From: Elusimicrobiota bacterium
GTDB taxonomy: Bacteria > Elusimicrobiota > Elusimicrobia > UBA1565 > UBA9628
Direction: 5' to 3'
Length of the DNA: 57,257 bases
NCBI GenBank assembly: GCA_026388095.1
Contig: JAPLKL010000062.1
Coordinates: 1 to 57,257 of the forward strand
Position 1 is the first letter of the stretch; every line of letters begins with the position of its first letter. Under the pieces are notes generated by a model. It was not told the DNA's origin and made no database searches. It worked only from the letters and a program-made list of their open reading frames with translations. Made by a program: the position numbers and the translations under genes. Below are positions 1,650 to 23,364 of this stretch, one piece after another.

Positions 1650-3344
1650 ATGGAACTGAAACTCGGCGGTAAGATCGCGCTGCTGCTGGTCATCGGGGCC
1701 CTGGCCTTGGGGGCCCTTTACAAGTTCGGCGTCATCAAGCCCGGGCACATGCCCGTGGTGGGCAAGACCATAGACAAGGACACCTTGGACAAGATCAAGG
1801 CCGGCACGGAGACGCCGACCACGGCCAAGACCTACAGCTTCGTGGCCAAGCAGGCCCTGGGCGAGGTCAAGGGCGTGTCCAACTACCAGTTCAAGGACAA
1901 CACGATCGTATTCCCCATCAACATCTGGGGCGGCTGGGCGCCCATCGTCGCGGCCAACAACGGCTTCGGCCCCAACAAGGACTCCGTGTTCTTCAAGAAG
2001 CACGGCATCCTGGTGGACCTCAAGCTCATCGACGACCCGTCGGCCGCGCGCGACGCCTTCGCCTCGGGCCAGTCGCACGTGCTCTGGGGCACCCTGGACA
2101 TGATCGCGCTCTTCGCGCCGGGCCTGTCGCGCGACTCGCGCACCGTGCCCATCGTCTTCCAGCAGATCGACTGGTCCAACGGCGGCGACGGCATCGTGGT
2201 GCGCTCCCGCATCAACGAGGCCAAGGACCTGCGCGGCAAGACCATCGTGCTGGCCCAGCACTCCCCCTCGCACTACTACATCCTCAGCGTGCTCACCGAC
2301 GCGGGCATCCAGCCCTCGGAGGTCAACTTCAAGTTCACGAGCACGGCCTTCGAGGCGGCCAAGGCCTTCGTGGACAACGCGGACATCGACGCCTGCGTAT
2401 CCTGGTCGCCGGACATCTACAACATCATCGACGAGAAGTACGGCGGCAAGAAGGGCGGCGTGGCCGGAGCCAGGCTCTTGACCACCACCCGGGACGCTTC
2501 CCAGCTCATCACCGACGTCTACGCGGTCCGGGCGGATTTCGCCCGGGACCACCACGACCTGGTCAAGGGCCTGGTCGCGGGCATCTACGACGGCTACGAC
2601 ATCGTCCAGAAGGAGCCGGGCAAGGTGGCGGGCCTCATGGCCAAGGGCTTCGGCGTCTCCGCGGAGGAAGCCAAGTCCATGATGGGCGACGCTCACCTGA
2701 CCAACTACGCGGAGAACAAGAAGTTCTTCCTGGACAAGGACAACCCGGCCAACTTCGCCCGCACCTGGGCCGCGGCGAGCTACGTCTACAAGTCCTACGG
2801 CGCCATCGGCACGCCCGTGCGCGCCGACGAGGTGGCCGACTCCACGGTCCTGGCCGAGCTGGACGGCAAGTACCCGCACCATAAGGACGAGTACACCCCG
2901 GCCTTCAACAAGATCAACATCTCGCACATGAAGCTGGAGTCCCAGCCCATCCTGACCAAGTCGGTCATGATCACCTTCGCGCCCAACTCCTGGAACCTGG
3001 ACTCGAAGTACGACTCCAACATCTCCAACGTGATCGAAGAGGTCGGCCAGTTGGCCGGAAAGTTCGCGGCCGCGCGCGTGGTCATCGAGGGCAACGTGGA
3101 CACCAGCCGCAAGATCGAGTTCCAGCGCGAAGGCCCCCGGGTCTTTCAGGAGATGTCCTTGGCCGTGCAGGAGCTCTCGGAGCGGCGGGCCGAGTCGGTG
3201 AAGACGGCTCTCGCGGCCAAGTACAAGTTCCCGCAGAACAAGCTGGCGGTCATCGGCAACGGCTGGGACAACCCCATGTCCTTGACCGACCATACCAAGA
3301 ACCGCCGGGTGGAGATCAAGGTCTACCCCCCGGAGGCTGAGTAG
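1650..3344 (+). CDS. ABC substrate-binding protein (NMT1/SsuA-like) fused to OmpA-like domain
   Basis: The product is 564 aa. Residues 8-25 form a single hydrophobic membrane anchor without an obvious cleavage site. About residues 65-390 resemble periplasmic binding proteins of the nitrate/sulfonate/taurine/thiamine-precursor group. About 440-560 is an OmpA-like peptidoglycan-binding domain ending in NRRVEIKVYP, the usual final strand. This suggests a binding protein tied to the inner membrane and touching the cell wall, rather than a free periplasmic one. The permease and ATPase genes lie 0.7-2.5 kb downstream on the same strand, as expected for one ABC importer. AGGAG precedes the ATG. The substrate cannot be read from sequence. 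Confidence 0.87.
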   Translation: MELKLGGKIALLLVIGALALGALYKFGVIKPGHMPVVGKTIDKDTLDKIKAGTETPTTAKTYSFVAKQALGEVKGVSNYQFKDNTIVFPINIWGGWAPIVAANNGFGPNKDSVFFKKHGILVDLKLIDDPSAARDAFASGQSHVLWGTLDMIALFAPGLSRDSRTVPIVFQQIDWSNGGDGIVVRSRINEAKDLRGKTIVLAQHSPSHYYILSVLTDAGIQPSEVNFKFTSTAFEAAKAFVDNADIDACVSWSPDIYNIIDEKYGGKKGGVAGARLLTTTRDASQLITDVYAVRADFARDHHDLVKGLVAGIYDGYDIVQKEPGKVAGLMAKGFGVSAEEAKSMMGDAHLTNYAENKKFFLDKDNPANFARTWAAASYVYKSYGAIGTPVRADEVADSTVLAELDGKYPHHKDEYTPAFNKINISHMKLESQPILTKSVMITFAPNSWNLDSKYDSNISNVIEEVGQLAGKFAAARVVIEGNVDTSRKIEFQREGPRVFQEMSLAVQELSERRAESVKTALAAKYKFPQNKLAVIGNGWDNPMSLTDHTKNRRVEIKVYPPEAE

Positions 3345-3370
3345 CGCCGGCGGACCTTTGTAGAGCTTCG

Positions 3371-3718
3371 GTGGAAATAAGACTGATCCGACAACCCGTC
3401 TCCTGGGCGGAGGTCCGCGCGCTGGCGGGGACGCAATTCGGCGAGATGGTCAAGGCGGCGGTCGACGTCGAGCGGGGGCTGTTGGCCCTGGGCGGAGAGC
3501 TGCATTCCGATGAGGAAGCGCTCTTGATCGAGGACGGCTCGCGGCAGGAGGACCTTTGGGGGATCAACATCTACCCGGACAGGCCCGAGGCGGACCGCGT
3601 CGAGTTCGACTCCATGATCAACGTCCGGCCTGCCCAGAACAACCGGTCGCGAGGGGTGGAGGACCCGGCGCTGCGCCGGCGCGTGCTGGCCGTCGTGGAC
3701 AGGCTGGTGAGAACGTGA
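3371..3718 (+). CDS. DUF5674 family protein
   Basis: The 115-aa product matches the DUF5674 pattern as I know it: QFGEMVKAAVDVERG, then GGELHSDEEALL, then QEDLWGINIYP, and EFDSMINVRP ending in NRSRGVED. The family is small and of unknown function, common in uncultivated bacterial lineages. The start is GTG, 26 nt after the previous stop. The gene overlaps the next one through a GTGA junction, so the two are probably translated together. The pair sits between the binding-protein gene and the permease gene of the ABC system, which looks like a two-gene insertion into that operon. Confidence 0.8.
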   Translation: MEIRLIRQPVSWAEVRALAGTQFGEMVKAAVDVERGLLALGGELHSDEEALLIEDGSRQEDLWGINIYPDRPEADRVEFDSMINVRPAQNNRSRGVEDPALRRRVLAVVDRLVRT

Positions 3719-4041
3719 GCGGGCCTCGCCATGCCACGTTGGCGGCCGGCCGCTGGGAGACCTTCACTCTGGCGCAGCAACTCGGCAATGTGGGCAGCGA
3801 GGTGAGCCGGGCCTTGCGCTGGCGAGGCAAGGATCAGAAACTCTTCGACGGCGCCATGGAACGGGCGCTTGAGCTGTTGGACCTCTCCATACGCGATCCC
3901 CGGTGGAAGCACCGCCTCAAGGAACTGACCCGGGCGCGCGAGCTGCTCTGCGATGCCTGGCTGGGCGGCAGGGAATACTCCTCCGACCTGGAGGGGCTCA
4001 ACCGCTATTTCTTCAACTTCGCCTTGGCCGCCAGATCGTAG
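3715..4041 (+). CDS. small helical protein paired with DUF5674
   Basis: I choose the GTG at 3715, which overlaps the TGA of the DUF5674 gene. This gives 108 aa. A longer reading from 3556 would overlap that gene by 160 nt. The product looks all-helical, with FTLAQQLGNVGSEVSRALRW, then a middle helix (ALELLDLSIRD) and LNRYFFNFALAARS at the end, like a four-helix bundle. Similar small proteins accompany DUF5674 elsewhere as I recall, but none has a known function. The tight overlap suggests the two products form a complex; this is inferred from gene order only. Confidence 0.7.
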   Translation: MSGPRHATLAAGRWETFTLAQQLGNVGSEVSRALRWRGKDQKLFDGAMERALELLDLSIRDPRWKHRLKELTRARELLCDAWLGGREYSSDLEGLNRYFFNFALAARS

Positions 4042-4052
4042 TGCGTCCCTTT

Positions 4053-4058
4053 TATTAT
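4053..4058 (+). promoter_or_regulatory. -10 element (TATTAT) for leaderless leader ORF/permease
   Basis: TATTAT is followed by 6 nt and then an ATG at 4065. The same geometry recurs elsewhere in this window. It would start a transcript at or next to that ATG, giving the permease-ATPase-AAA part of the operon its own promoter downstream of the DUF5674 pair. No clear -35 is visible. Confidence 0.45.
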
Positions 4059-4064
4059 ATTATC

Positions 4065-4103
4065 ATGGTCGCAAAGGATCCCATGTCCGAGGCCACACGA
4101 TGA
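4065..4103 (+). CDS. putative 12-aa leader peptide, coupled to permease start
   Basis: The reading is ATG then MVAKDPMSEATR and TGA. Its stop overlaps the permease ATG in an ATGA junction at 4100, a classic translational-coupling arrangement. The ATG lies 6 nt after a TATTAT box, so it would be translated from a leaderless mRNA. The permease itself has no strong ribosome site other than an AAAGGAT inside this leader. The peptide carries no run of rare or identical residues that would suggest attenuation. It is an inferred feature. Confidence 0.4.
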   Translation: MVAKDPMSEATR

Positions 4104-4912
4104 GTCCCGCATTCAAGATCCGCGAGGAGCCCCTGCGCAAGCGCTCCTTCCTCCTGGGCTCGGCCGCCGTGGCCTTGGCCATCGGGGTCTGGGGCTATCT
4201 GACCACCGGCTCGCAGATCGAGTCCCGCATCCTCAACCCGCAGATCCTGCCTAACCCCTGGGAGGTCCTGCTCTCCTTCAAGGGCCTCTACAACGACCGC
4301 GACCTCATGACCTCCATCACCTACAGCCTGTTCCGGACCACGGTGGGGTTCCTGCTCGCGGCCGCGGTCGCCATCCCGCTGGGCATCCTGATGGGCGCCT
4401 TCACCAAGTTGCGCGAGTTCTTCAAGCCCCTGACCACCATCTCCGGCTACATCCCCATCGCGGTCCTGGTGCCGCTGTCCTTGTCCTGGTTCGGGCTGGG
4501 CGAGAAGCAGAAGATCCTCTTTTTGGCGCTGGCCACCTTCGTGATGCTGCTGCCGCTGGTCATCGCCAGCCTGGACCGGGTGGACGAGGTGTACCTGCAG
4601 ACCGCCTACACCTTGGGCGCGAACTCCTGGCAGACCATCTCCGAGGTCCTGGTGCCGGTGGCGCTCTGCGACATCTACGACGACCTGTGCCTGACCTACG
4701 GCATCGGCTGGGGCTACATCATCCTGGCCGAGCTCATCAACGCCAAGTTCGGCCTGGGCTACCTCATCACGGTCTCCCAGCGCCGGGGCATGAACGAGGA
4801 CGTCTACGCGGTCCTCATCGTCATCGTGCTCATCAGCTTCCTCATCAACTGGACGCTCGCCCGCATCGGCGGGTGGCTCTTCCCCTACCGCGAAGCAGGG
4901 GCGGGGAGGTGA
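4100..4912 (+). CDS. ABC transporter permease (SsuC/TauC/NrtB-like)
   Basis: The 270-aa inner-membrane protein has about six hydrophobic segments. A BPD_transp_1-type core runs from about residue 70, with the EAA loop recognisable as YTLGANSWQTISEVLVP near 175-190, which docks the ATPase. The ATG at 4100 is preferred because upstream in-frame residues overlap the previous gene. The best relatives by feel are permeases for nitrate, sulfonates or taurine, matching the binding-protein type upstream. The ATPase follows after 4 nt. A shorter start at 4083 is out of frame and belongs to the leader peptide. Confidence 0.9.
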   Translation: MSPAFKIREEPLRKRSFLLGSAAVALAIGVWGYLTTGSQIESRILNPQILPNPWEVLLSFKGLYNDRDLMTSITYSLFRTTVGFLLAAAVAIPLGILMGAFTKLREFFKPLTTISGYIPIAVLVPLSLSWFGLGEKQKILFLALATFVMLLPLVIASLDRVDEVYLQTAYTLGANSWQTISEVLVPVALCDIYDDLCLTYGIGWGYIILAELINAKFGLGYLITVSQRRGMNEDVYAVLIVIVLISFLINWTLARIGGWLFPYREAGAGR

Positions 4913-4916
4913 GGCC

Positions 4917-5844
<928 letters not shown>

Positions 5845-5855
<11 letters not shown>

Positions 5856-6666
5856 GCCCAGCTACGTGGGCGCGGCCTTCAAGCGGGCGGAGAACCTCAT
5901 CGGCCTGACCGGGCTGTGCGTGGCCGGGGTGCTGTTCAACCCGGGCTTCCTGTTCCTGGCCGGCGCGGCCGAGCTGGCCTATCTCTGGGCTTTGGGAGGC
6001 AACGAGCGCTTCAAGCGGGTGGTGGATTCCCAGACCAACCGCCTGCGCAGCCTGTTCGACGCCAAGGAGAAGGACCGGCTGCTCCTGCGCCTGCCGGGCG
6101 AGGAGCGCGACCGCTACCTGGAGCTGGCCAACATCCGCCAGCGGGTCTACGAGTCCTGGCAGAACCGCGACGCGGTCACGCAGGGCCTGCTGCAGCCCAG
6201 CGTGGACAAGCTGGACTACCTTTTGGACACCTTCCTGCGCGCGCAGATCACCTTGAGCTCCATGCAGGAGCACCTCTGCGACAGCAACAAAGCTCAATTG
6301 GAGCGCCAGATCCGGACCATCGAGGCGGACATCAAGCGGGGGCTGCCGGACAAGCTCAAGGACGCCAAGAACCGGAGCCTGGACATCTTCCGGCAGCGCA
6401 TGACCAGGCTCGACAAGCTCGAGACGGATATGGAAGTCCTGCGCACCCAGATCGACAACATCGAGCAGACCATCAAGCTGGTCAGCGACCAGTCCATCTC
6501 CTTGAGCGACCCCCAGCAGGTGGCAGGCCAGATCGACGGGGCCGTGGCCGAAGTGGGGGAGACCGAGCGCTCCCTCAACGAGGTGGAGAGCTTCCTGGGC
6601 TCCGAGCAGGAGGCGGACAAGAAGGACGCGGCCGCGCAGGAGCAGGCGCAGAAGGAGCAGTCATGA
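5845..6666 (+). CDS. coiled-coil membrane protein
   Basis: The chosen start is ATG 5845, 18 nt inside a possible TTG start. The 273-aa product has a hydrophobic hairpin at about residues 19-50, then about 220 residues of mostly charged helix likely to form coiled coils, ending in a Glu/Gln/Ala-rich tail. No family is recognised. The stop overlaps the AAA+ gene start as ATGA, so it is probably made in step with that ATPase. It may be the membrane anchor or adaptor for the AAA+ protein; this is inferred from context. Confidence 0.8.
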
Positions 6667-8372
6667 GCGTGGAGAACTATCCGGCCTGGGCGCGCGAGCT
6701 GGCCGACAAGTACATGAGCGGCTCGGCCTGCCTGTTCATCCTCTCCGGCAACATCAACGACTGGGTGCCGCTGCGCGAGACCAACACGACCAGTTTCGTC
6801 TCTTTGGCCGATTTCCTCAAGAACGCGCTCTTCGGCCAGCGCGACGCGGTGGTGTCCTACGACCAGGGCTCGGGCATCACGGTGAGCGCCGACGCCATGC
6901 AGGACTTCTACAAGACCGTGGAGGCCTTGGACACGGTCACGGGCACGACTTACGGCAAGAAGATGCCCAAGAATCCCTCCGAGGCTTTGCTGGTCATAGA
7001 CCGCTTCATCCGTTCCCGGGCCATGGACTCGAAGAAGAAGGCCAGCGTGGCCGTGGTCATCCAGTTCGCGCATATGGTGGCGCCGCGCGGGGATCTGCAG
7101 TTCATGAACCAGGAGGATTTCCGCACGCTCATCACGGTGCAGAAATGGGCCACGGACCCGGTCTTCGCCAAGTCGGATGTGACCATCGTGCTGGTGACGG
7201 GAAGCCTGCAGGACCTCAACGAAGCTATCGTCAACAACCCTTTCACGGCCAAGGTGGAGATCGGCCTGCCTGACGAAGGCGAGCGCCGCGATTTCATCGC
7301 CAACTGCAACATCCCGGTCAAGTACGATGGGCTCACCGAGGAGACTTTCGCGCGGCAGACCAACGCGCTCTCGCGGGTGGACATCTCGGTCATCCTTCGC
7401 GAGGCGCAGAGGCAGGGCAAGCTGGACCTGACCTTGATGGCGCGCAAAAAGAAAGAGCTCATCGAGAAGTCCTGCTTCGGGCTTCTGGAGTTCCTGGAGC
7501 CGACGCGGACCTTGGACGACGTGCAGGGCCAGGACGCGGCCAAGAAGCGTCTGCGCGAGGACATCAGCCTGATCAAGAAGGGGGCCTGGGACGCTTTGCC
7601 CATGGGCTATCTCTTCACCGGGCCGGTGGGCACGGGCAAGACGTACCTGGCGACCTGCGCCATCGGGGAGCTGGGCATTCCTTGCGTGCAGTTGATGAAT
7701 TTCCGGTCCAAGTGGGTGGGCGCGACCGAGGGCAACCTGGAGAAGATCCTGCTGACCCTGCGGGCTTTGGGGCCGGTGGGCGTGATCATTGACGAGGCCG
7801 ACGCTTTTATGGGCACGCGCGAAGAGGGGGGGGACTCCGGGACCTCCAACCGCATCTTCGCGCAGTTCGCCACGCAGATGGGCGACACGCGCTATCGGGG
7901 CAAGATCCTGTGGTTCTTGATGACCTGCCGGCCGGACCTTCTGCCGGTGGACATCAAGCGGCAGGGCCGGGTGGAGATCCACATCCCGCTGTTCTATCCG
8001 CAGGAGGACGCGGAGAAGAAGCTTTACTTCGTGACCATGTCGAAGAAGACGGGCTGGCCGGTGGGCGAGGCGGACGTGGACCCTCGGTGGGTGGCGGGAA
8101 AAAAGCTTTCGGGCGCGGACATCGAGGCGATCATCGTGGCGGCCAAGCGGCAGAGCCTCTTGGACGGGGGCGGGCAGCCGAAGAAGAAGTATCTGGAGAC
8201 CGCGGCCTTGAATTTCATCCCTTCGACCTCGGTGGTGGAGGTGCAGTTCCAGGAGTTGGCCTCGGTGATCGAGTGCACGGATCAGTCGTTCTTGCCGGAT
8301 TCCTACCGGAAGGCGGACCGGGTGGAGCTGCTTAAGGATTTCCACCGCTTGCAGGCGATGATGGAGGCCTGA
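6663..8372 (+). CDS. tandem AAA+ ATPase, first domain degenerate
   Basis: The product is 569 aa. Residues 20-215 look like a first AAA-type domain that has lost its P-loop: strands such as VAVVIQFAH and VTIVLVTGS remain, but there is no GxxGxGK(S/T). Residues 280-500 are a complete AAA+ module with Walker A GPVGTGKT at 320-327, Walker B VIIDEAD at 374-380, and TCRPDLLP followed by an Arg at the sensor/finger region. This layout resembles Ycf46-like AAA proteins. It overlaps its neighbours at both ends (ATGA at 6663, TGATG at 8370). Together with the PspA and vWA genes it suggests ATP-driven remodelling at the membrane; the substrate is unknown. Confidence 0.87.
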   Translation: MSVENYPAWARELADKYMSGSACLFILSGNINDWVPLRETNTTSFVSLADFLKNALFGQRDAVVSYDQGSGITVSADAMQDFYKTVEALDTVTGTTYGKKMPKNPSEALLVIDRFIRSRAMDSKKKASVAVVIQFAHMVAPRGDLQFMNQEDFRTLITVQKWATDPVFAKSDVTIVLVTGSLQDLNEAIVNNPFTAKVEIGLPDEGERRDFIANCNIPVKYDGLTEETFARQTNALSRVDISVILREAQRQGKLDLTLMARKKKELIEKSCFGLLEFLEPTRTLDDVQGQDAAKKRLREDISLIKKGAWDALPMGYLFTGPVGTGKTYLATCAIGELGIPCVQLMNFRSKWVGATEGNLEKILLTLRALGPVGVIIDEADAFMGTREEGGDSGTSNRIFAQFATQMGDTRYRGKILWFLMTCRPDLLPVDIKRQGRVEIHIPLFYPQEDAEKKLYFVTMSKKTGWPVGEADVDPRWVAGKKLSGADIEAIIVAAKRQSLLDGGGQPKKKYLETAALNFIPSTSVVEVQFQELASVIECTDQSFLPDSYRKADRVELLKDFHRLQAMMEA

Positions 8373-9564: not shown

Positions 9565-9804
9565 ATGCTTAATCAGGCCTTTGCTAAGGTGCTTAGACGG
9601 CTTCGGAACGAAAAGGGTCTTAGCCAGGAGCGGTTTGGTTTTGAAGCGGGCCTGCATCGCACCTACGTATCTCAGTTGGAAAGAGGGCTAAAATCTCCCA
9701 GCCTAGAGACCCTAAGCCGCATCTCCAGGGTCCTGCAGATTAGCCTATCGAGTATGATGAAGATGGTGGAGTCCGGGCACCGGAATGCGAATGCTCAGCG
9801 GTGA
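9565..9804 (+). CDS. XRE-family HTH regulator, probable R-M controller (C) protein
   Basis: The 79-aa product has the size of R-M controller proteins and is almost entirely one HTH_3 domain: LRRLRNEKGLSQERFGFEAG, then the recognition helix region LHRTYVSQLERG, then SLETLSRISRVLQ. It overlaps the next gene, a candidate endonuclease, by 20 nt. This is the standard C-R gene order, in which C activates R late to allow methylation first. The nested palindrome upstream fits autoregulation. Confidence 0.85.
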   Translation: MLNQAFAKVLRRLRNEKGLSQERFGFEAGLHRTYVSQLERGLKSPSLETLSRISRVLQISLSSMMKMVESGHRNANAQR

Positions 9805-10495
9805 TGAACGGCGACGGCTGATCAGCGGCATTCGCGCTGCGATCGCGGTGCCATTCGTGGACGATATTGAGGATTACATCTGGGAGGCAATCTTCGCATA
9901 CGCGTACAATTTACCTTTGATCGACCCTCTCACGAACACCCGCGCCAAGCTGCTTTTTGACGTGGTTCATTCAAAGAAAAAAATCGGTTGGTCCTGCAAA
10001 GCCCTTCAATGGCCCATAACACCTGGCGGAGAATTTGAGCTTGTTATCCAAAGAGCGGATATTTTTAAGAAGGCTTGCGCGTTAGGATTCGGGACTTTGG
10101 ACACGAATAGTTCCTGCGCGGTTCTCGGTCGTGCCGTTCTGAAGCACTGGCACTCCAAGGTTCATTCTGACGCGGCGACTCAAGGAGTGAGAAACAAAAG
10201 AATTGCCGTACTGCTCAAGAGTGATGATCGCACAAAGTACGCAATTTACGAAGACCTGCTGGTCGAATACGCCCCTACTGACTTGGAATGGAGTTGGACG
10301 AACCAGTCAAAAGCAGGGCTGCAAGGTAGGCGAAAGAAAGACAATTTTTGCGTGTATCGTTGGCATCCGAATCAAAAACAGTTTTTCGAGCGCTTCCGCC
10401 TACCCGCCAATGCGCCCGTCATCGAGATCAAGCCGCAGCGGCTACCTTTGAAGATGGTCGTCGACTTGCTGGTTTCGCGCCTTCAAGACACTTAG
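9785..10495 (+). CDS. candidate type II restriction endonuclease
   Basis: The 236-aa product has no family I can name with certainty. Its position (after a C-like regulator, convergent with a C5 methyltransferase) and its size fit a type II endonuclease. A possible PD-(D/E)xK-type core is Asp59 in KLLFDVV followed by GWSCKAL with Lys72, where the middle acidic residue would be replaced by Ser70; this is tentative. KLLFDVVHSKKKIGW and LVIQRADIF look like core strands. The start could also be the ATG at 9791. The 3' end overlaps the convergent methyltransferase gene by 68 nt. Confidence 0.6.
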   Translation: MRMLSGDERRRLISGIRAAIAVPFVDDIEDYIWEAIFAYAYNLPLIDPLTNTRAKLLFDVVHSKKKIGWSCKALQWPITPGGEFELVIQRADIFKKACALGFGTLDTNSSCAVLGRAVLKHWHSKVHSDAATQGVRNKRIAVLLKSDDRTKYAIYEDLLVEYAPTDLEWSWTNQSKAGLQGRRKKDNFCVYRWHPNQKQFFERFRLPANAPVIEIKPQRLPLKMVVDLLVSRLQDT

Positions 10496-11597
10496 TGATG
10501 TTTTCTGCCAGGGCTCCCATCAGCAGAGGGGGCACGGCATTCCCGAGCTGGTGCGCCTTCTCAATGTAGGTCCCAGTGAAAAGGAAATCATCCGAGAAGG
10601 ACTGAATCCTCGCGACCTCCCGAATGGTCAGCACGCGAGGCTCCACTGGATGTGAAAAACGTCCTGAGCCAGGATGAAAGACCCATCTGGTGATTGTGGG
10701 GGCAAGCATCTTCGTGTCCAGCCTGCCGTAGGCTCCGCTGTAGCCTGATTTGGGTTGCAGTCGTTTTGGTAAATCTCTCCAGGCTTGGCCGGGGCCAATG
10801 GCCGAAATCCGTGCATACTGTTTTTCGTTTAAACGCCGAGTCACATGATCATGCAGCACCTGTGCGCCGCAACGCATGAGACGTTGATAGTCGTTCTGCG
10901 GCGGTTGATCATACTCCATTGGGTCATGCCCCTGACCGTTTGTTAGTTTTGGCAAATCGGAAATGCATGACCACGCCGACCTGTGCTTTCGGAGACTGGA
11001 AAATAACTCTGTCGTTTCGTCGGGGGCGAAGGTGGGATTAGGGAAGATCGGGGGAACCCCTGTTCTTGATGCGAAGAAAAAACATCGTCGGCGACGCTGC
11101 GGCAATCCGTAATCGGGCGCGTAAAGCACTTTAATTTCCGTATCGTACCCCAGCTCCCCAAGTCGCTCGCGGACTTCTTCTCTGACTGCGCCGTCGTATG
11201 CGTTAAATATCTCGGCAACGTTTTCCATCACCAGAACCTTTGGTTCAAGGACAGCCGCGTATTCGAGAAAATTTCTAAATAGAAGGTTCCTGGGATCCTC
11301 GAAGAATCGACCCTTGGCCGGAACATTTTTGGAGAAACCTTGGCAGGGAGGGCCTCCAATGAGGCAATCTAATTTGCCCCGGCCTAGCCCCAAATGGCGC
11401 AGAATCTCTTTCGGGGGAAGATTCTGGATCGACTCGTTGAACACCGCGGCGGTCGGATGGTTGGCTTGAAAGGTTTCCAGGGCCCGTTTCCAAAGGTCAA
11501 TGGCTCCTAGCGCCCGAAAGCCCGCTTTGTGAAGGCCCCATGACATCCCGCCGCAGCCGGAGAATAGATCGAGGACCGTGTGTTGAGCTTTTATCAT
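10428..11597 (-). CDS. DNA (cytosine-5) methyltransferase 1
   Basis: All key motifs are in place in 389 aa: SAM site DLFSGCGGMSWG from residue 10, catalytic GGPPCQGFS with Cys85, ENV at 125-127, QRRRR at 167-171 and GNAVPP at 352-357. The enzyme transfers a methyl group from SAM to C5 of cytosine, which here would protect DNA from the neighbouring nuclease. The target recognition region (about 200-310) cannot be decoded by eye. Upstream on the minus strand a TATAGT box lies 5 nt before the ATG, suggesting a leaderless mRNA. The octamer ACTATAGT overlapping it resembles half of a controller-protein box. Confidence 0.95.
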   Translation of the reverse strand: MIKAQHTVLDLFSGCGGMSWGLHKAGFRALGAIDLWKRALETFQANHPTAAVFNESIQNLPPKEILRHLGLGRGKLDCLIGGPPCQGFSKNVPAKGRFFEDPRNLLFRNFLEYAAVLEPKVLVMENVAEIFNAYDGAVREEVRERLGELGYDTEIKVLYAPDYGLPQRRRRCFFFASRTGVPPIFPNPTFAPDETTELFSSLRKHRSAWSCISDLPKLTNGQGHDPMEYDQPPQNDYQRLMRCGAQVLHDHVTRRLNEKQYARISAIGPGQAWRDLPKRLQPKSGYSGAYGRLDTKMLAPTITRWVFHPGSGRFSHPVEPRVLTIREVARIQSFSDDFLFTGTYIEKAHQLGNAVPPLLMGALAENITKCLEGAKPASRRPSSKVAAAA

Positions 11598-11678: not shown

Positions 11679-12083
11679 TCATCGAATAGCGGTCAATGAC
11701 ACCACTAGGCTTGAAGGTTTTTCCGACAGCTGATGCTCCCAGACACGGCGGACACTCCAGCCAATACGGCGGAGCGCTCTTGCATTCCGCTCATCGCGGG
11801 ATCGATTGAGAAGCGCTTTGGAGTCCCAATACTTGCGCGAGGACTTCGGCCGACGGTAGCATTTTGGGCAGCCGTGCCAAAAGCAGCCATCAACAAAAAC
11901 CGCAAGCTTCCGGGCCGGAAATACAAAATCGGGGGTCCCCGGCAGATTTTTGTCTCTTACCCGCCAACCTTTGATGCCCAAGCGAATCAGCACTGCTCGT
12001 AGACGCCATTCGGTTGAGCGGTTGCCATCAGAACGGATTTTCTCCATTACGACGGAGCGCTGCGCCTTGGTGATGTTGTCCAT
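11679..12083 (-). CDS. vsr: Vsr-type DNA mismatch endonuclease
   Basis: The 134-aa product is a standard-length Vsr. Glu25, Asp52 in PGTPDFVF, the DGCFWHGC motif with His70, and CPKC followed by RRPKSSRKYW (zinc and substrate region) are visible. Vsr nicks next to T:G mismatches that arise when 5-methylcytosine deaminates, so it commonly accompanies C5 methyltransferases. Its start codon shares one base with the stop of the 340-aa gene upstream, placing it last in the minus-strand run of methyltransferase 2, GHKL ATPase and the 340-aa protein. Confidence 0.93.
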   Translation of the reverse strand: MDNITKAQRSVVMEKIRSDGNRSTEWRLRAVLIRLGIKGWRVRDKNLPGTPDFVFPARKLAVFVDGCFWHGCPKCYRRPKSSRKYWDSKALLNRSRDERNARALRRIGWSVRRVWEHQLSEKPSSLVVSLTAIR

Positions 12084-13119: not shown

Positions 13120-14691
13120 TCAGCGAATCTCGAACAGTTTTGCAATCCTCTGCAGCAAGTCTCGGCGCACTGCGGGCGGGACTCTGTCGCCGATAGTCTT
13201 TTCCACCACCCCACATATCCCCATGAATAGATCGCGATGGCGGGTTGGGACTGTGGCCACCAGCTCTTCATCAACAACCAGGCTCCGGCGTGTCAGCCGA
13301 ACACCTGCAGGAGTCGCGATCTTAGAGGCGGCTGTTTCCAGCGTCATTGAGCCGGGCGAGCCGAAGATGGCGGAGTGGGTTTCGTTGGCGCGTTTTTTGT
13401 GTTCCTTTTGTTTTTTCCGGTCGGCCGCTTTTTTTGCCATCGCCTTGATGCTGGTGAAAATGCCGGCACCCTCATCAGTTTTCTTCCCAAGGCGCTGAAA
13501 GAGGAACTCCTGCAACGAGAGATATGCCTCGTCAGATTCCCGGAATGAGGCTCTGTCAATGTTGATGGCTTCATCAAGGCCATCGTCAACGTATATCTCG
13601 CCGCAGAGCTGGGAGAATTTCCACCCTTCGTGTTTTGGGTACTTAAGGTAGGTGGGGTCGAATGTCCCGATCCCGACGTTCCGCACACGGACCAGGATGC
13701 CCTGTAGCTCTCTCGGGAGAATCCGGCTCTGCTGCCAATAGATGTATCCTCGAACCCGCAGCGTTCTCTTGTCTGACAAGGTCGTGGTGAAATCCAGTTT
13801 GGGATAAACTTTGAAGTCTGTTGCGGCGCCAAGCGGAAGAAGAAGGGGTTTGAACAACTCGACGCCATCTAGGAAAACGCTAAATTTGAAACTCTCCATG
13901 CGCTTCCGCAGATCGTCAAGCGATGGTGTGTCGCGGATCGGCCCTCCGGGAAGATATCTGATGGGCGTGGTCGAGGCGAGTTCCCAAATCAGCTGAGCAT
14001 AAGCTCCATGTTCCGAAACTGTATCATGGCTTACGCTTCGAAGGAAGGCTTCCATGTCGCCCTTTTTGAATATTTTCGGTGTGACCCCCATCTTTCCCAT
14101 CGGGGAACTCTGCAATTGCTGGCGGAACCCTGGGATAATCGAATCCATTACAACGCGGGTGTAGTGCTTCTCCGGGTCTTCGGGAGCAGTGTCCATCTCA
14201 CATTTTCCAATCTCCACCTTGTCGTTTCCTGACAAGGGTTTGTTGAGCTGAACCCTGCGGGCCTCTGGGCGCATATATGGTTCCAAGTTGATCTTTGCCC
14301 GGAACTTAATGGGGCTTCCCTTCGCAGATGAGAAGACCTCGAACCTTCGACAAATCTGGCCTATTGAAAGTATCCCGATTCCAATTCTGCCCACGAGTGG
14401 GCGGTTGTTGATAGGAGAAACCTCTCCGTGATCTCGCTTGCTGCTGCCGCCAATCAGCCCCATGTTCTGCTCGAACTGTTCTGGCGTCATGCCAGTTCCG
14501 TCGTCCGAGCAAGTGAAAGTCCCAAAGTGGGGGGCGTTCGTGGACACCTGCACCATATTCGCATCAGCGTCAAAAGCGTTGGTCACCAATTCTTTCAGCG
14601 CGCCTGCCGGTGTTCGATAGATGCCGGCGCTGATGTCGGCGATGACTGATGCCGCTGCGTTTATTGGGAACTTTCGCGTCTCGGCAGCCAT
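13120..14691 (-). CDS. GHKL (MORC/MutL/Hsp90-like) ATPase of R-M island
   Basis: The 523-aa product carries the Bergerat ATP-binding fold: N-box ALKELVTNAFDADA (Glu34, Asn38, Asp41), G1 motif DDGTGM (Asp64) and the GRIGIGILS loop at 101-109. Residues about 200-350 could be the S5-type transducer domain, where an active Lys would sit. Prokaryotic MORC-like GHKL proteins are known from restriction-modification neighbourhoods, where they probably act as DNA clamps or ATP-driven switches for nucleases. The C-terminal 120 residues hold a Lys-rich stretch (AKKAADRKKQKEHKKR). It starts 9 nt after the second methyltransferase and is followed by the 340-aa gene after 14 nt. Confidence 0.88.
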   Translation of the reverse strand: MAAETRKFPINAAASVIADISAGIYRTPAGALKELVTNAFDADANMVQVSTNAPHFGTFTCSDDGTGMTPEQFEQNMGLIGGSSKRDHGEVSPINNRPLVGRIGIGILSIGQICRRFEVFSSAKGSPIKFRAKINLEPYMRPEARRVQLNKPLSGNDKVEIGKCEMDTAPEDPEKHYTRVVMDSIIPGFRQQLQSSPMGKMGVTPKIFKKGDMEAFLRSVSHDTVSEHGAYAQLIWELASTTPIRYLPGGPIRDTPSLDDLRKRMESFKFSVFLDGVELFKPLLLPLGAATDFKVYPKLDFTTTLSDKRTLRVRGYIYWQQSRILPRELQGILVRVRNVGIGTFDPTYLKYPKHEGWKFSQLCGEIYVDDGLDEAINIDRASFRESDEAYLSLQEFLFQRLGKKTDEGAGIFTSIKAMAKKAADRKKQKEHKKRANETHSAIFGSPGSMTLETAASKIATPAGVRLTRRSLVVDEELVATVPTRHRDLFMGICGVVEKTIGDRVPPAVRRDLLQRIAKLFEIR

Positions 14692-14700
14692 TTTGATCTC

Positions 14701-16119
14701 CTAAATTTGTTTCAAGGTTCGCAACGCGGCTCTTGCCAGAGCGCGAGCCATGTTGTACGGGACGGCGTTCGCTACTTGAAGCGGCTGTTCCGCATGGGGG
14801 CCGAGGAAGCGGAACCAATCAGGGAGTGTTTGCAGGCGAGCAGCTTCCCGAACGGTGATTGTTCTATCTTGTAGCGGATGCACCGGTAGCGCCCGGTGGC
14901 CAGCGATAATCGTGTGTGCCAGGGTTGTGGGCAATCTCCGGTAAGATAACGGGCCGTTGCCCGGCTGTATCTTCCGTATTTTGGCCACCACTGCCGGGCC
15001 GTGCGTCATCGCACGGTGATTGTAAACCAATCTCCCTTTTATGGTCATGACGTCATTACCCTGCCCCGGAGCGAGCTTGGGTAGACCCTTCAAAACCGCG
15101 GCAACGGTGCGCTTTCCCCTTCTGCCCGGAGGGACCAGCGCCTCGGGGCGAAGTTTGAGATTCTTCCTCGCAGCGACGAATATTAGTCGTTGCCGCCGCT
15201 GCGGCACGCCAAATTTTGACGCATCCAGCTCAACCGCCTTTGCCGAAAATCCATGGTCCTCAATAAATCCCAGAATCCTTGTCTTGAAATTGACACCAGC
15301 GACCCGCATGAGCCCTGGCACATTCTCCATAACTAGGATTGGCGATTGTAGCCCATGAGCCATGTTCGCGATGACCCGGTACAGCAGGTTTTGACGGGCT
15401 CCAGGCTTCCTGAGGCCAGCGGCGCTGTAGCCCTGGCATGGCGGCCCCCCCATGACGAGGGACAATTTGCCCAGAGCCAAGCCAGAAATCTCGGCGACGC
15501 GTGCGGGGGAAATTGAGCGCGCATCCATCTCAAGAACTGGGACTCCTGGGTGATTGTGTCGATACGTTTGGGCCGCATGACGAGATTTCTCAATCGCCAA
15601 GACGATGCGGAAACCTTCCCTCAAAAACCCAGCAGACAGCCCGCCCGCCCCGGCGAATAAGTCTAGAACTGTGGGACGATCACTAACTCGATGGCGATGA
15701 TTGGCAAGGCCCGTTTGGCAGAAAGAGATGAGCGGGCAACGGTGGCATTTGGGGCTAGATGCTCTGCAGAGGCGCTGCGAATGATGAGCCACTTTGGGCA
15801 GGAAATCAGCCTGGAGCCTGTCACCGACTCCGTTGCCACATTTCTTTCTAAGAAGTTTTTCGATCTCGCCGAATATTCCGATTCTCCTCAATGCTCGCGT
15901 GACTCCGGCATGGGTTAGCCATGAGGTTTGTCGTGCAGCCGAAGGGGGCACTGCGCTGCGCCTGGCAGCGAGCAACTCAACGGAGCGCTCGACTATCCAT
16001 GCACATTTCGGAGGCTGTCGACCCCAATTGCGGCTCACGGTGCTCCTTGGGCGCTCCAAAGTCATTCCCACGCGAGGGACCGCGAATTCATGCCAACACC
16101 CGCTCAATTGCATTTGCAA
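14701..16119 (-). CDS. DNA (cytosine-5) methyltransferase 2 with N-terminal endonuclease III-like Fe-S region
   Basis: Residues 148-472 are a complete C5 methyltransferase: DLFAGAGGLSAGF, catalytic GGPPCQGYS with Cys228, ENV at 265-267, QRRQR near 310 and VANAVP near the end. The first 145 residues are unusual. C118-x6-C125-x2-C128-x5-C134 is exactly the [4Fe-4S] loop spacing of endonuclease III/MutY glycosylases. It is preceded by a matching helix region (THAGVTRALRRIG, then VAHHSQRLC), but the usual catalytic Asp before TH is Leu68. The HhH-GPD part further upstream is missing, and the 5' end runs into an IS630-type fragment. The start at 16119 is therefore uncertain, and ATG 16065 (Met19) is an alternative. 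Confidence 0.85.
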   Translation of the reverse strand: MQMQLSGCWHEFAVPRVGMTLERPRSTVSRNWGRQPPKCAWIVERSVELLAARRSAVPPSAARQTSWLTHAGVTRALRRIGIFGEIEKLLRKKCGNGVGDRLQADFLPKVAHHSQRLCRASSPKCHRCPLISFCQTGLANHRHRVSDRPTVLDLFAGAGGLSAGFLREGFRIVLAIEKSRHAAQTYRHNHPGVPVLEMDARSISPARVAEISGLALGKLSLVMGGPPCQGYSAAGLRKPGARQNLLYRVIANMAHGLQSPILVMENVPGLMRVAGVNFKTRILGFIEDHGFSAKAVELDASKFGVPQRRQRLIFVAARKNLKLRPEALVPPGRRGKRTVAAVLKGLPKLAPGQGNDVMTIKGRLVYNHRAMTHGPAVVAKIRKIQPGNGPLSYRRLPTTLAHTIIAGHRALPVHPLQDRTITVREAARLQTLPDWFRFLGPHAEQPLQVANAVPYNMARALARAALRTLKQI

Positions 16120-16435
16120 CCATTCCCGGCCTCACCTCTCTAATCTTCCTTGGTCGGCCGGGAATCGGGCGGGTCATGAGTCCTGCCATGCCCTCGTGGG
16201 CGAAGCGATAGCGCCAAAGCTTGACCGTATTGCGGCTGATGCCGAGCTGTTTGGCGATCATGTAATTGGTCTGGCCTCGCGCGGCCCGCATGACTACGTT
16301 CGCTCGGATTGTCAAGCGTTGGGACAGCCGGGCACTCACAGTCCCCTTATGCCATCTGCCCAGGGTTCTTCGCTCAGGCAGGCTAAGTTGGATGGGGATG
16401 GAGGAGCGTCTAGGCATGATTGAAGATTGTAGCAT
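16088..16435 (-). pseudogene. IS630-type transposase N-terminal fragment
   Basis: The 115-aa reading has the helix-turn-helix start typical of IS630-family transposases: ARLSQRLTIRANVVMRAARG, then YMIAKQLGISRNTVKLWRYRFAHEGMAGL, then PIPGRPRKI. It stops just where the second helical domain and DDE catalytic part should follow, and the rest is absent. It overlaps the 5' end of methyltransferase 2 by 32 nt. An insertion that later decayed probably cut off the upstream part of that gene. A free-standing HTH regulator is possible but less likely because of the GRPRKI linker. Confidence 0.65.
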
Positions 16436-18298: not shown

Positions 18299-18902
18299 TA
18301 TTGGCGGGGGATTGATAAGGATTGCAGGACCGTCTGCCGAAAGGGCCAAGAGTCTAGTGCTTCTAGATACCTACCCCTACTTCGACGAGCCCGTATTGTC
18401 TCGGCAGGAATTCCAGCCGATTGCGCTTGTGGGGTTGCCCTACAGGACTCAAACCACAAGTACGGTTTGATGAGGGGGCCGTGGAAACGTACGAGGCCAG
18501 GCCTCGTGTCGCGCCACGGCCCTACTCTGCGCATGAGAGCCCGTCTCTAAAATGGTTCTGAACAAACCAGTTCTCCTTTTGCGGCCGGAGACTTTTTGCT
18601 TTATTTTTGCATAGGTCTGCACTATGAGTCCCATCTAAATATAGGCCAGAAAATGTTTCACCTTTGCCCCAGAGACCCATTCAGAGGGATATGGGCCGGT
18701 GTTAGAATAAAGCAGTATTATTTGGTGCCATTATCATATGATTCCACAAAGCGTGTGTATCTCCCAGACACATCAGAGAAAAACAAGACATGCCCTAATC
18801 GATCTCCATGGATTACATGATGCCGATGGCGGGATTGATATCAAGACGAAGGACGGGCGAATTACATTTCAATACCCAGCGCGCTGCTAAACAGAGGTGA
18901 AT
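18299..18902. other. 600-bp low-GC gap with ORF fragments
   Basis: There is no convincing full gene. Plus-strand fragments are visible. One reads RLKADIGGGLIRIAG and continues through LDTYPYFDEPVL to a stop at 18470. Another from ATG 18738 ends in DGGIDIKTKDGRITFQYP at 18890. Both look like remains of genes broken by frameshifts. AGAGGTGA at 18894-18901 is the ribosome site of the next gene. Confidence 0.35.
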
Positions 18903-21632
18903 ATGGAATTTTCCCTTGCAATGAAATTGGTTGCCGATGAACTGTTAGATAAAGAGGTGGCGACAAAGGAAACCTATTCCCAAAGCGCGTCCTTAGATAT
19001 GGCGCGAGAAATCCTACATGCGTCTCCTGAATATAAATTGGGGGACTTTAGCAGTCCTACTTTGAGGGATTTCATCAAGAATGAGGATTCGCTGGGGCCA
19101 TATGAAAAGCACATTCTTTGCACGCTTCTGTTAGGGCCATCCAAGGTGGTGGCAATCCTCGGCGGGCTGGGATGTGGGAAATCTTCCTCAATGAAATTCG
19201 TCAAAAGGTTTGTTGACGAGAACCGCGTGGGTAACCAAATAGAGGTTTTCTTGGTCGATGGGAATCTGATGGACATTCATTTCCCGCCGACTAATGATGA
19301 AGCCATTCGCCGACAACAATGGGAGCATCTTCTGGGCGAACTCGACCGCCAAGTGTACGAGACTTTCTGCGTCACAGCGAAAACCAAAAACGCGGTTTAT
19401 TCGATACTTGCATCAGCGCAAAGGCGAAGGTATCTGCCCGAAGGGAAGAAAGGTGGAATCGGGTCTAATTTCGCAATCATACAAGATGTAATGGCAAAAT
19501 GCGGAGGGTTGACTGAACTTAAGAGCGCATTGGATAACGGGCGCGATGTAAATGCGCTCATTCGCAAAGTGGTCCTAGAGGAAATGAAGCCAGGAGACAT
19601 GACTAGTTTGACTATGGCGTTGATGCAAGTTCGACATCTCCAAAAGCCATTGGCAAAACGAAGATCAATCCTTATCGTTGACAATCTCGACCCATTGCCG
19701 AGATATTTGCAGAAGGATCTGCTAGTTTTCCTTCTGCGACGCGGGAATCCAATTGACTATATGGTCGCTGTGCCCCTGCGCTTGTCCACATTCGAAGAAG
19801 CCTCCCGATACCACCCATTTTCGTGGTACCCGCATTCCGGGCCACTGCCATTAGAAATCCTCTTTAGTAAGCTTGCCGTCTTTCTCGCGAACCCAAAGGC
19901 TCTGAACAGCTTTCAAAGCGTTACCGATAGGGGAATGCAGAGCCGCATCTATTTTAGAGTTACCGAATTCTTCTTCCGTTTTCTCGTGGGGTCTCGCGAT
20001 TTTAGAGATATCTTCGAATCGATTGCGGGGCATAATGTGCGAAACGCATATGATGTTGCCTCCGGATGGTTACGCCATATAAACCTGCGCAGCAATTATC
20101 CAGACCTGGACATGCGGGAAGTGCAGGAGGAGGTTCGGCGGCACAGCTTCTTGTTCTTCTGTGAAGAGGTAATTATGACCTTATCGCGTGTCCTGCGCAC
20201 GGAATCAACAAGAAGAGAATTTGCCCCCAAAGCACTTTCTGTTGACGGTGAAGAAATGGCGAAGAGAATCGGTGTGCACCTCGCGGAACGGCTTGCCGCG
20301 ACTTGCGCAAAGCAAGTACAGAGATTTATCGCGAATGTGCGTTGGGTTTCCGATTTGAAGCCGGCAGACTTTGACAGGTACCTAGCATGGGCTTTCGGGA
20401 AACTCGAGATGTGTTTTGATCAAGAGAACGAGCACTTGAGTCCACTCGCAGGCGCCACGGCATTCGCCCGGCTGGAAGGAGCCCGGGTTGGCAGAAAAGA
20501 TGAATTCTGTCAGGAAGCTATGCGAGAGCTGGCCAAGACGCTACAAGATCAGGGGGCAGAGGTCATCTCCGCTGCGGGGATTTCTCTGACCAGCGCGAAA
20601 TTGCTGTGCAAAGGCATCATTGATCGACTGCAATCAGGAATGAAGGTAGACCCAAGCGATAGAAGGGTGGAGTTGGAAATCAAGGAGCCCTGTAAATATG
20701 CTGCACCCAATATTGAGGCTGGCATAAGGGGGCTACTCGATAGGAACAGCAGGTACGAAGCTGCCAAGAGTCTGATCTTTCTCGACGATGCTACTAATCC
20801 CTTGCGAGAGAAATTCATTTTTAACGTTTTCGGAATTAGAAGAGAGCTTAGCCCATTAGGTCTTCGAATCATTTACCTCCTTGCCGAGCAAAGGGGGCAA
20901 TTTATGCCGGTTCAGCAGTTGCTATCCGAGTTGGACCGCCATGGATACACAGATGAGGTTGAGACACGAGATGTTTTCAATAGCATGATTGACACTGACC
21001 GGCGGTTGCTCGCAATCGCCGTCGACGCAGATTTTCAGAGCTATTCGGAGATTAAGTGCCTCACAACGCAGAACGTGCAATTGACCCCGGTGGGCCGCAA
21101 TTACTACGAGCGATTGGTTTGGCAGCCTGTTTATATTCAGGCGATGCTTCCACGATTGGTAGGCCGCGGCTGTGATGATGAGCCAAGGGAATCTTCGCGA
21201 CATGAGGAGAACTTCCGCATTCTCAATCGCCTTGATGAGACATTTGATGCCCTTAAGAATCTTGTTGAAAACGAGTTCTCTCGTTTGGGAAAGCCTTGGA
21301 ATTCCCGGATCCAGATCCAATGGCGACCTGTTGATTTAGAATGTCAGAGCGCAGCTGGCGATGTCTATACAAAGAGTCTGGAACGCTTTGTCACCTCTTG
21401 TTGTAGTCACTTCCACAATTTACGCCAAGAGTCTAATGGGAACGCCCACCGCGTAGCCGAACTGACCTTCCAATGGATTGACTTTGGTCGGCAGATGATG
21501 CTCAAGCACGCTGAAATATTCAAATCAAAGAATCAAAATTGGGAGGTGCGAATCGGAGAGGCCGATAGGCTGGCAGAGAGGAACATGGGGCGTGAATATG
21601 CCAATTTGCGACATCCCCAGGTTTCTCTTTGA
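18903..21632 (+). CDS. large P-loop NTPase, possible defence ATPase
   Basis: ATG 18903 is chosen because AGAGGTGA lies 1-8 nt upstream; the GTG at 18897 is part of that site. The 909-aa product has Walker A GGLGCGKSS near residues 87-95 and a Walker B-like SILIVDNLDP near 255-265. The Asp-Asn pair resembles STAND/KAP-type NTPases more than AAA+. The remaining 600 residues are mostly helical with no named domain, including a winged-helix-like stretch around LGLRIIYLLAEQRGQFMPVQQLLSEL. It is AT-rich compared with the flanks. It lies between a coiled-coil membrane protein gene and a small two-TM protein gene, with which it overlaps. Confidence 0.75.
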   Translation: MEFSLAMKLVADELLDKEVATKETYSQSASLDMAREILHASPEYKLGDFSSPTLRDFIKNEDSLGPYEKHILCTLLLGPSKVVAILGGLGCGKSSSMKFVKRFVDENRVGNQIEVFLVDGNLMDIHFPPTNDEAIRRQQWEHLLGELDRQVYETFCVTAKTKNAVYSILASAQRRRYLPEGKKGGIGSNFAIIQDVMAKCGGLTELKSALDNGRDVNALIRKVVLEEMKPGDMTSLTMALMQVRHLQKPLAKRRSILIVDNLDPLPRYLQKDLLVFLLRRGNPIDYMVAVPLRLSTFEEASRYHPFSWYPHSGPLPLEILFSKLAVFLANPKALNSFQSVTDRGMQSRIYFRVTEFFFRFLVGSRDFRDIFESIAGHNVRNAYDVASGWLRHINLRSNYPDLDMREVQEEVRRHSFLFFCEEVIMTLSRVLRTESTRREFAPKALSVDGEEMAKRIGVHLAERLAATCAKQVQRFIANVRWVSDLKPADFDRYLAWAFGKLEMCFDQENEHLSPLAGATAFARLEGARVGRKDEFCQEAMRELAKTLQDQGAEVISAAGISLTSAKLLCKGIIDRLQSGMKVDPSDRRVELEIKEPCKYAAPNIEAGIRGLLDRNSRYEAAKSLIFLDDATNPLREKFIFNVFGIRRELSPLGLRIIYLLAEQRGQFMPVQQLLSELDRHGYTDEVETRDVFNSMIDTDRRLLAIAVDADFQSYSEIKCLTTQNVQLTPVGRNYYERLVWQPVYIQAMLPRLVGRGCDDEPRESSRHEENFRILNRLDETFDALKNLVENEFSRLGKPWNSRIQIQWRPVDLECQSAAGDVYTKSLERFVTSCCSHFHNLRQESNGNAHRVAELTFQWIDFGRQMMLKHAEIFKSKNQNWEVRIGEADRLAERNMGREYANLRHPQVSL

Positions 21633-21936: not shown

Positions 21937-22266
21937 GTCGCAGTCAGCGGCCCCGGCGCTCGCCGCCTCTGTTGGGCAATCGCCTCCATGAGTAAGACAG
22001 ACAATCTTTGTCGACGGGAGAAAAGCGCCGAAGGGTCAGACGGAGAGTCCTCCAGTGGGAAAGCGGCGGCTAAACCATCCGCAAGCAAGAGCTCGAATAC
22101 TGCGTCCTCTTCCGCGACACTGACTGTGCTAAGCTCCCCAAGCCTTAACCCCTCACGGAAGACCCCGACGCCGCCACCAAGTTTTCCAAATTCCTGCCCA
22201 ATCCCGCGCCGCGCTCCGGAGGGCAATTTCAGCTGCCTTTTGCTAGAATCGGCTGGACTCACGCCC
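21937..22266. other. 330-bp gap with possible decayed minus-strand gene and promoter of membrane protein
   Basis: On the minus strand a protein-like stretch reads GVFREGLRLGELSTVS, continues through LLLADGLAAAFPLEDSPSDP and ends in QRLSVLLMEAIAQQRRR near 21950. It has no convincing start and may be the tail of a lost gene. On the plus strand an extended -10, TGC-TAGAAT (22241-22249), precedes the membrane-protein ATG by 17 nt. The same TTTTGCTAGAATC precedes the copy at 27590. Confidence 0.4.
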
Positions 22267-23364
22267 ATGACCCCCGACCAGCCCGCCCCACCCGCCAAAC
22301 TCGCCATCCGCCGCACCCTTCGCCTGGGCTCGGGCCTGCTCGCCGCCGCCGCCATCCTCGACCTCGCCCGCGAAGCCTACTCCGGCGGCTCCTGGCTCGC
22401 CACCCCCGGCCTCGGCCAAGCCTACGCCATGGTCCTCACCGCCTACGCCGCCACCCGCGAATGGGAGAAATGGACCGACCCCAAAGACCAGACCGCCTAC
22501 CACGGCCACTACTACCTCCTCGCCTGGATCACCCTACCCCTCATCCTCTGGCTCACCGACATCACCAACATCGCAGCCCCCGCATGGCCCGCCAACCTCA
22601 ACACCACCCTCGGCTGCGTCCTCGCCGCATACGCCGGCAGCAAAGCCTCAAGCCGCTGGCGCGGCTTCACACGCCGCGCATTCGTCAAAGCCCGCCTCCA
22701 GCCCCCGGCCCAGCCAGAGCCCCTCACCCCCGACCGCCTCCTCACCAGACACACCCTCAGGATCGGCGCCATGCTCTTGGGCGCCGCCTGCCTCTGGGAC
22801 GCCGCGGTCGAAGCCTTCTCCGCGGGCGCATGGACCTACACCGGCCACCTCGTCTCCACCTACAGCCTCGTCCTTGGCGCCTACGCAGCCACCCGCGAAT
22901 GGGAAAAATGGACCGACCCCTATGACCAGGACGCCTACTGGGGCCAATGGTTCGTGGCCGCCTGGTGCCTCCTGCCCGTCCTCATCTGGCTGACCATGGC
23001 CGTAGGCTTCCCTAATAAGTGGCCCTCCGGCCTCACCCCCGCCCTGGCCGCTGTCCTGGGCGTCTTTGCCGGCAGCAAAGCCTCCGCGGCTTGGCGGGCG
23101 GACAAGGCCAAGAAAGGCTGGGGGAACGTCCCTGGCCTCCCCCAGCCCGCCCCGGGCGACGGAGCAGCCCTCCCGGCCGACCCCCCCGGCCCAGCCGACC
23201 AGGTCGCCCGAGCCTGCCGCAAGCGCGGCGCCTTCACGGCCGAACAGATTGCCTCGGACACCGGCCTGACCCTGCGCGCGGCCCGGGGACATCTTGGCGT
23301 ACTTGTCAGGGAAGGGTATGTATCCAATGACGGCAACGACCAGTTACATTGGATAGGACCTTAG
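22267..23364 (+). CDS. two-module membrane protein with C-terminal winged helix (family copy A)
   Basis: The 365-aa product holds two homologous membrane modules at about residues 15-135 and 155-275. Each has four hydrophobic segments and the signatures AYAATREWEKWTDP and (V/A)LxxxAGSKAS(S/A)xWR. A Pro-rich linker leads to a wHTH-like end (DQVARACRKRGAFTAEQIAS, then RAARGHLGVLVREGYVSNDG). A membrane protein with a DNA-binding-type tail suggests either a membrane-tethered regulator or a chance fusion. The start ATG is 17 nt after TAGAAT. Parts are nearly identical in DNA to the copies at 27590 and 32849, so duplication is recent. No family name is recognised. Confidence 0.75.
   Translation: MTPDQPAPPAKLAIRRTLRLGSGLLAAAAILDLAREAYSGGSWLATPGLGQAYAMVLTAYAATREWEKWTDPKDQTAYHGHYYLLAWITLPLILWLTDITNIAAPAWPANLNTTLGCVLAAYAGSKASSRWRGFTRRAFVKARLQPPAQPEPLTPDRLLTRHTLRIGAMLLGAACLWDAAVEAFSAGAWTYTGHLVSTYSLVLGAYAATREWEKWTDPYDQDAYWGQWFVAAWCLLPVLIWLTMAVGFPNKWPSGLTPALAAVLGVFAGSKASAAWRADKAKKGWGNVPGLPQPAPGDGAALPADPPGPADQVARACRKRGAFTAEQIASDTGLTLRAARGHLGVLVREGYVSNDGNDQLHWIGP

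Follow-up and report, generated by a model that had tools for sequence, protein, structure and literature searches.

The window, the whole 57,257-nucleotide stretch of Elusimicrobiota DNA analyzed here, encodes a C5 cytosine methyltransferase with a four-Cys cluster directly ahead of its motif I. We consider it rather likely that this enzyme carries a pared-down glycosylase [4Fe-4S] module that would hold DNA, with Vsr repairing T:G mismatches. At the level of sequence we found the cluster, its likeness to the glycosylase profile, its in-frame fusion to the methyltransferase, the lack of a detectable catalytic half, an orthologue built likewise and a methyltransferase tree on which the trait changes at least three times.

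Methyltransferase gene and cysteine cluster

The following features of the gene were assigned in the window.

14701..16119, minus strand: open reading frame of the preliminary description, 472 amino acids from TTG at 16119; the frame is open to 16131
14701..15891, minus strand: likeliest coding part, from TTG at 15891 (residue 77)
15769..15810, minus strand: residues 104-117, ADFLPKVAHHSQRL, stretch ahead of the cluster that aligns with the last helix before the glycosylase Fe-S loop
15718..15768, minus strand: Cys cluster C118-x6-C125-x2-C128-P-x4-C134, a glycosylase-type [4Fe-4S] loop by sequence
14728..15672, minus strand: C5 cytosine methyltransferase domain, residues 150-464 (Pfam PF00145)

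The cluster reads C118-RASSPK-C125-HR-C128-PLISF-C134, with its codons running from 15768 down to 15718. Motif I follows in the same open reading frame, 17 residues separating C134 from the motif I Asp, and DLFAGAGG (motif I), GPPCQ, ENV, QRRQR, REAARLQ, and NAVP were all found intact. Residues 150-464 belong to the DNA_methylase family PF00145 with E=6e-48 and 164 bits against a Pfam cut-off of 22.

The preliminary description had taken the cluster to be of glycosylase type and joined in frame to a C5 methyltransferase; both readings were borne out. Residues 118-134 scored 19.9 bits against the cut-off of 20.5 for EndIII_4Fe-2S (Pfam PF10576), whose x6/x2/x5 Cys spacing they fit, and NCBIfam mutY matched residues 109-140 (E=0.007). 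The Cys motif was found once in all six-frame open reading frames of at least 60 amino acids in the window (0.035 expected per window after shuffling) and in none of 20,000 shuffles of its own open reading frame. An HMM built from nine glycosylases gave 23 bits on the window N-terminus, at residues 104-136 only, while the best of 200 shuffles of the same N-terminus gave 3.3. With hhalign the N-termini of the window protein and its orthologue L221 (see below) aligned to glycosylases over 34 columns (94.9%, E 4e-8) that comprise the last helix and the loop only, and the HMM match in L221 was likewise confined to the loop region. The glycosylase likeness is limited to the loop and the ~14 residues ahead of it. 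The window protein shares with EndoIII/MutY enzymes (HhH-GPD superfamily, Fe-S loop PF10576) the C-x6-C-x2-C-P-x4-C loop and the preceding helix, but it is without the HhH, the six-helix barrel and the catalytic Asp, and its loop is N-terminal to a methyltransferase. A structure model of residues 44-472 had high confidence in the methyltransferase and low confidence in the N-terminus (pLDDT 35-60), and its Foldseek matches were methyltransferases.

Start codon and upstream region

The start that we infer is one of two, TTG at residue 77 (15891) or GTG at residue 110 (15792), the sole later candidate, and either keeps all four Cys. In the window, in L221 and in L227, an intact fusion described below, the stretch from the cluster to motif I contains no start codon, and therefore an ordinary start cannot give a methyltransferase without the cluster. 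From residue 1 to about residue 76-84 the codon-position G+C is not coding-like. As the start codons there are also weak and the similarity to a transposase remnant ends near 16100, the N-terminal ~76 residues are probably outside the real protein.

16088..16435, minus strand: IS630-family transposase remnant, first ~103 amino acids

The remnant lies directly upstream, and IS630 sequence does not run on into the methyltransferase open reading frame. A search for its terminal inverted repeats found none.

No glycosylase domain was found ahead of the loop. The window protein gave no Pfam hit to the HhH-GPD family (PF00730), and no HhH-GPD piece was present in any of the six frames over ~2.4 kb upstream, or in the upstream frames of L221. 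The region before the first Cys of the window protein scored the same as shuffles against glycosylases, and it does not resemble the corresponding region of L221. A hand alignment of RRSA..LTHAGV (window) and RRTA..LVAS (L221) to the HhH/Asp segment looked good by eye and was rejected, as it failed against shuffles. The earlier proposal that the catalytic Asp before TH is now Leu could not be upheld: there is no alignable region at the catalytic Asp, an LTH/DTH alignment was matched by 610 of 2000 shuffles, and the reading lacks support because the region before the Cys is at shuffle level and no frame holds an upstream HhH-GPD. Of the fusion, or remnant of one, that had been suggested, the in-frame glycosylase loop stands; a glycosylase recognizable beyond the loop was found neither in six frames nor above shuffles.

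The IS630 remnant and the non-coding look of residues 1-84 could also be taken to mean that the gene is an artefact or a pseudogene, in which a frameshift at the IS630 junction conceals a complete upstream glycosylase. This is very improbable, given the lack of a glycosylase match in six frames over ~2.4 kb upstream and an L221 protein that is just as short.

The Vsr cassette and neighboring genes

The methyltransferase gene is followed by three genes of a cassette, and a restriction-modification set lies beyond them.

13120..14691, minus strand: GHKL ATPase (HATPase_c_3), 523 amino acids, second cassette gene; orthologues in L045 and L221
12083..13105, minus strand: PP_RS20740-like protein, 340 amino acids, third cassette gene (NF047698, E=4.7e-17, below cut-off)
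11679..12083, minus strand: Vsr mismatch endonuclease, 134 amino acids (TIGR00632, 114 bits, above cut-off); its start overlaps the preceding gene by one base
10428..11597, minus strand: second C5 methyltransferase (M2), 389 amino acids, no Cys cluster, a neighbor outside the fusion
9785..10495, plus strand: type II restriction enzyme (PADLOC REase_II, 3e-42), convergent with M2
9565-9804, plus strand: XRE regulator, upstream of the restriction enzyme

The order is C5 methyltransferase, GHKL ATPase, PP_RS20740-like protein and Vsr, and the gaps or overlaps between the genes are short. The set belongs with the C5-MTase/GHKL ATPase/RR-like/Vsr cassettes, HATPase_c_3 and Vsr being above cut-off and the PP_RS20740-like partner below it. 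Sets of C5-MTase, HATPase_c_3, RR-like protein and Vsr are already described (PMC8011034, PMC2292703). With such cassettes (GHKL ATPase of the HEF_HK, paraMORC-like type) the window shares the order of methyltransferase, HATPase_c_3 protein, small partner and Vsr, whereas its partners are below the Pfam thresholds for HEF_HK and Response_reg_2, and no Fe-S module is mentioned in the passages of the two papers that were consulted. The presence of Vsr is unsurprising because the gene heads a cassette of a published type; its coexistence with the fusion, which the preliminary description had pointed out, is ordinary for this type (PMC8011034). In L045, a genome of the window's family, the methyltransferase (39% in alignment A1), the ATPase and the partner all have orthologues, and Vsr is divergent. 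The L045 methyltransferase begins at motif I and has no Cys cluster.

In the type II restriction-modification set (9565-11597) the genes for the restriction enzyme and M2 overlap by 68 bases (10428-10495). A 911-amino acid open reading frame at 18897-21632 of the window contains the P-loop GGLGCGKSS and is perhaps a STAND-type ATPase near the restriction-modification region. A 458-amino acid open reading frame at 21988-23364 contains the similar stretches ..REWEKWTDPKDQTAYHGHYYLLAWITLP.. and ..REWEKWTDPYDQDAYWGQWFVAAWCLLP.., an internal duplication of a membrane-like domain.

Fusions, short forms and separate genes

Relatives were found with a DNA-pattern scan for the Cys cluster in a collection of species genomes; the pattern allowed one Gly codon and DLF only, so that the set is incomplete. 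Many pattern matches, from Streptomyces and others, were dropped as they were out of frame.

The search for a full-length fusion of an intact HhH-GPD domain to a C5 methyltransferase, proposed at the outset, found one, L227 (Actinomycetes MAG, 584 amino acids), in which a single frame encodes both PF00730 (E=6.8e-16) and PF00145 (E=1.2e-55), and which scored 183 bits for mutY. As in the window, the glycosylase Fe-S loop of L227 is directly before motif I. In contrast to the window, L227 has the full glycosylase domain in the same frame, and its methyltransferase is on another branch of the tree. Searches of the window's order and phylum, the Eremiobacterota phylum and the L227 class found no further fusions. 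Downstream of the intact fusion, at 3294-7063, L227 has open reading frames of 354, 598 (P-loop) and 327 amino acids in one direction, possibly a defense operon. That the window protein itself is bifunctional, with a methyltransferase and a T:G glycosylase working in one chain, is extremely improbable: L227 encodes such a chain, but in the window and L221 the HhH, catalytic Asp and barrel are absent in every frame, and too few residues precede C118.

L221, from an Eremiobacterota MAG, is the orthologue of the window protein from another phylum (43% identity) and has the same short build. A GHKL ATPase comes after its methyltransferase, and a Vsr-like gene is nearby. All four Cys are kept, the first gap being x5 instead of x6. 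Between window and L221 the loop is identical at 11 of 16 positions (69%) and the methyltransferase at 144 of 315 (46%), with 46 of 295 equally long methyltransferase stretches as conserved as the loop. Any selection on the window cluster rests on this one pair because the window subtype has two known members.

Short forms were also found in other lineages. L223 (Thermoplasmata MAG) has the Fe-S loop on a shorter N-terminus with no catalytic core. Methyltransferases of Clostridia and phages also carry the loop on a shorter N-terminus, with all four Cys in 12 members. In this family (median identity 32%) the four Cys are among 10 invariant columns ahead of motif I, where the invariance of C2-C4 is partly built in because the search pattern for most members required them; C1 was not demanded by the pattern, and L138 and L285 were found without it. 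The N-terminus of the Clostridia proteins alone gave no match in phage or plasmid records. Whereas the C1-C2 spacing of EndoIII is constant (x6), it is x5 in L221 and varies from x4 to x7 across the other lineages.

Separate glycosylase genes beside C5 methyltransferases, which the preliminary description had mentioned, were found on two plasmids. Mig.Mth is a MutY-like glycosylase encoded beside a C5 methyltransferase. On the Thermus thermophilus plasmid pTthSNM7-6d (L255) an open reading frame for a MutY-like glycosylase (4025-4720) overlaps the end of a C5 methyltransferase gene; the PLSDB table lists no gene at this site. On an Alisedimentitalea plasmid (L256) a C5 methyltransferase and a restriction enzyme of the MvaI/BcnI type are followed by a 'hypothetical protein' (5374-5898), which is a MutY-like glycosylase that retains the Asp. 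As in the window, a glycosylase-type Fe-S protein is combined with a C5 methyltransferase, but the genes are separate and the catalytic residues intact. C5 methyltransferases of haloarchaeal plasmids (L022, 4197-6437; L282; L283) have a ~310-amino acid N-terminus that is weakly and collinearly HhH-GPD-like, which has an Asp where the catalytic Asp would be and only two remaining Cys; comparison of its profile with glycosylases (21.8%, E 1e-3) is suggestive only. No published fusion of a glycosylase loop and a methyltransferase was found in the literature searched.

Methyltransferase tree

The tree was built on the methyltransferase domains, and several of its branches are long. The window protein and L221 form a clade with support 98/93, and the cluster-less L045 is its sister with support 96/97. 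The cluster trait changes four times on the tree, with three or more of the changes forced by the starred branches. The phylogeny thus requires at least three changes of the trait, for which gains are not separable from losses. The loop on a methyltransferase looks like a recurring and hitherto undescribed way to build a DNA methyltransferase.

Structure model of the Clostridia N-terminus

The N-terminus of the Clostridia proteins was modeled as helical with a mean pLDDT of 84. Foldseek gave no significant match for this model, and its likeness to MutY surfaced only in a second structural comparison. There, MutY/MUTYH were the best aligners among 87 candidate chains, with Z up to 6.8 over 84-97 residues at an rmsd of about 5, values that fall short of proving a common fold, since Z is below 8 for a small helical model. 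Unrelated chains gave Z of 2.3 or less. The model fits a glycosylase Fe-S domain from which the barrel has been removed, at a level below proof.

These results bear on whether the cluster is a zinc knuckle without kinship to the glycosylases that has come to look like their Fe-S loop by convergence. Four Cys can bind zinc, and the C1-C2 spacing differs across lineages. However, the profile likeness starts before the first Cys and takes in the P and L of CPL, L227 has an intact glycosylase at exactly the same place, and MutY/MUTYH are the chains closest to the Clostridia N-terminal model among those compared. A zinc knuckle is on this evidence improbable.

Discussion

The main rival to a DNA-holding module is that the cluster serves no purpose today and is the tail end of an earlier glycosylase-methyltransferase fusion, kept only by its position upstream of motif I; in the window the other parts were perhaps lost with the IS630 insertion. 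The missing catalytic half, the IS630 remnant immediately upstream, the weak start codons, the cluster-less orthologue in L045 and a glycosylase made redundant by Vsr are all in agreement with this. L221, however, is short too, and it has the four Cys and the conserved loop where the remaining N-terminus has drifted to background. In a neutral relic, moreover, a single Cys should go first, and Clostridia and Thermoplasmata retain comparable short forms. We therefore regard the relic as unlikely. The window module is probably more than a local relic, because an orthologue in a different phylum and separate lineages have retained the cluster.

For the preferred reading, a methyltransferase with a reduced glycosylase module, we propose the following. 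The N-terminal module would have been taken from an EndoIII/MutY-type glycosylase and consist of its final helix and four-Cys loop. Its descent may be from a fused T:G glycosylase-methyltransferase of the L227 kind, with subsequent loss of the catalytic barrel. The module would bind a [4Fe-4S] cluster. The loop that the cluster forms in MutY is in contact with the backbone of the DNA, and the enzyme no longer binds DNA once the cofactor is lost (PMC12000561). By analogy with MutY the basic loop between C1 and C2 may touch the DNA backbone, and the module could help the methyltransferase to hold or scan DNA and possibly confer redox sensitivity. The T:G mismatches from deaminated 5-methylcytosine would be left to the Vsr of the cassette. 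More tentatively, C5 methyltransferases may have repeatedly taken up a glycosylase and lost its barrel, so that an independent [4Fe-4S] domain for DNA binding was left, which would make them an undescribed class of iron-sulfur methyltransferases that is possibly redox-gated; we rate this as somewhat less likely than not.

T:G mismatches arise from C5 methylation, and C5 methyltransferases are accompanied in genomes by Vsr or by glycosylases. In the proteins described here methyltransferase and glycosylase are joined in one chain, where the glycosylase is either intact, as in L227, or represented by its iron-sulfur loop only. Should this loop bind a cluster, a DNA methyltransferase would be equipped with a redox cofactor, and the role of the cluster in DNA binding would be separated from base excision, a point that is still debated for MutY and EndoIII.
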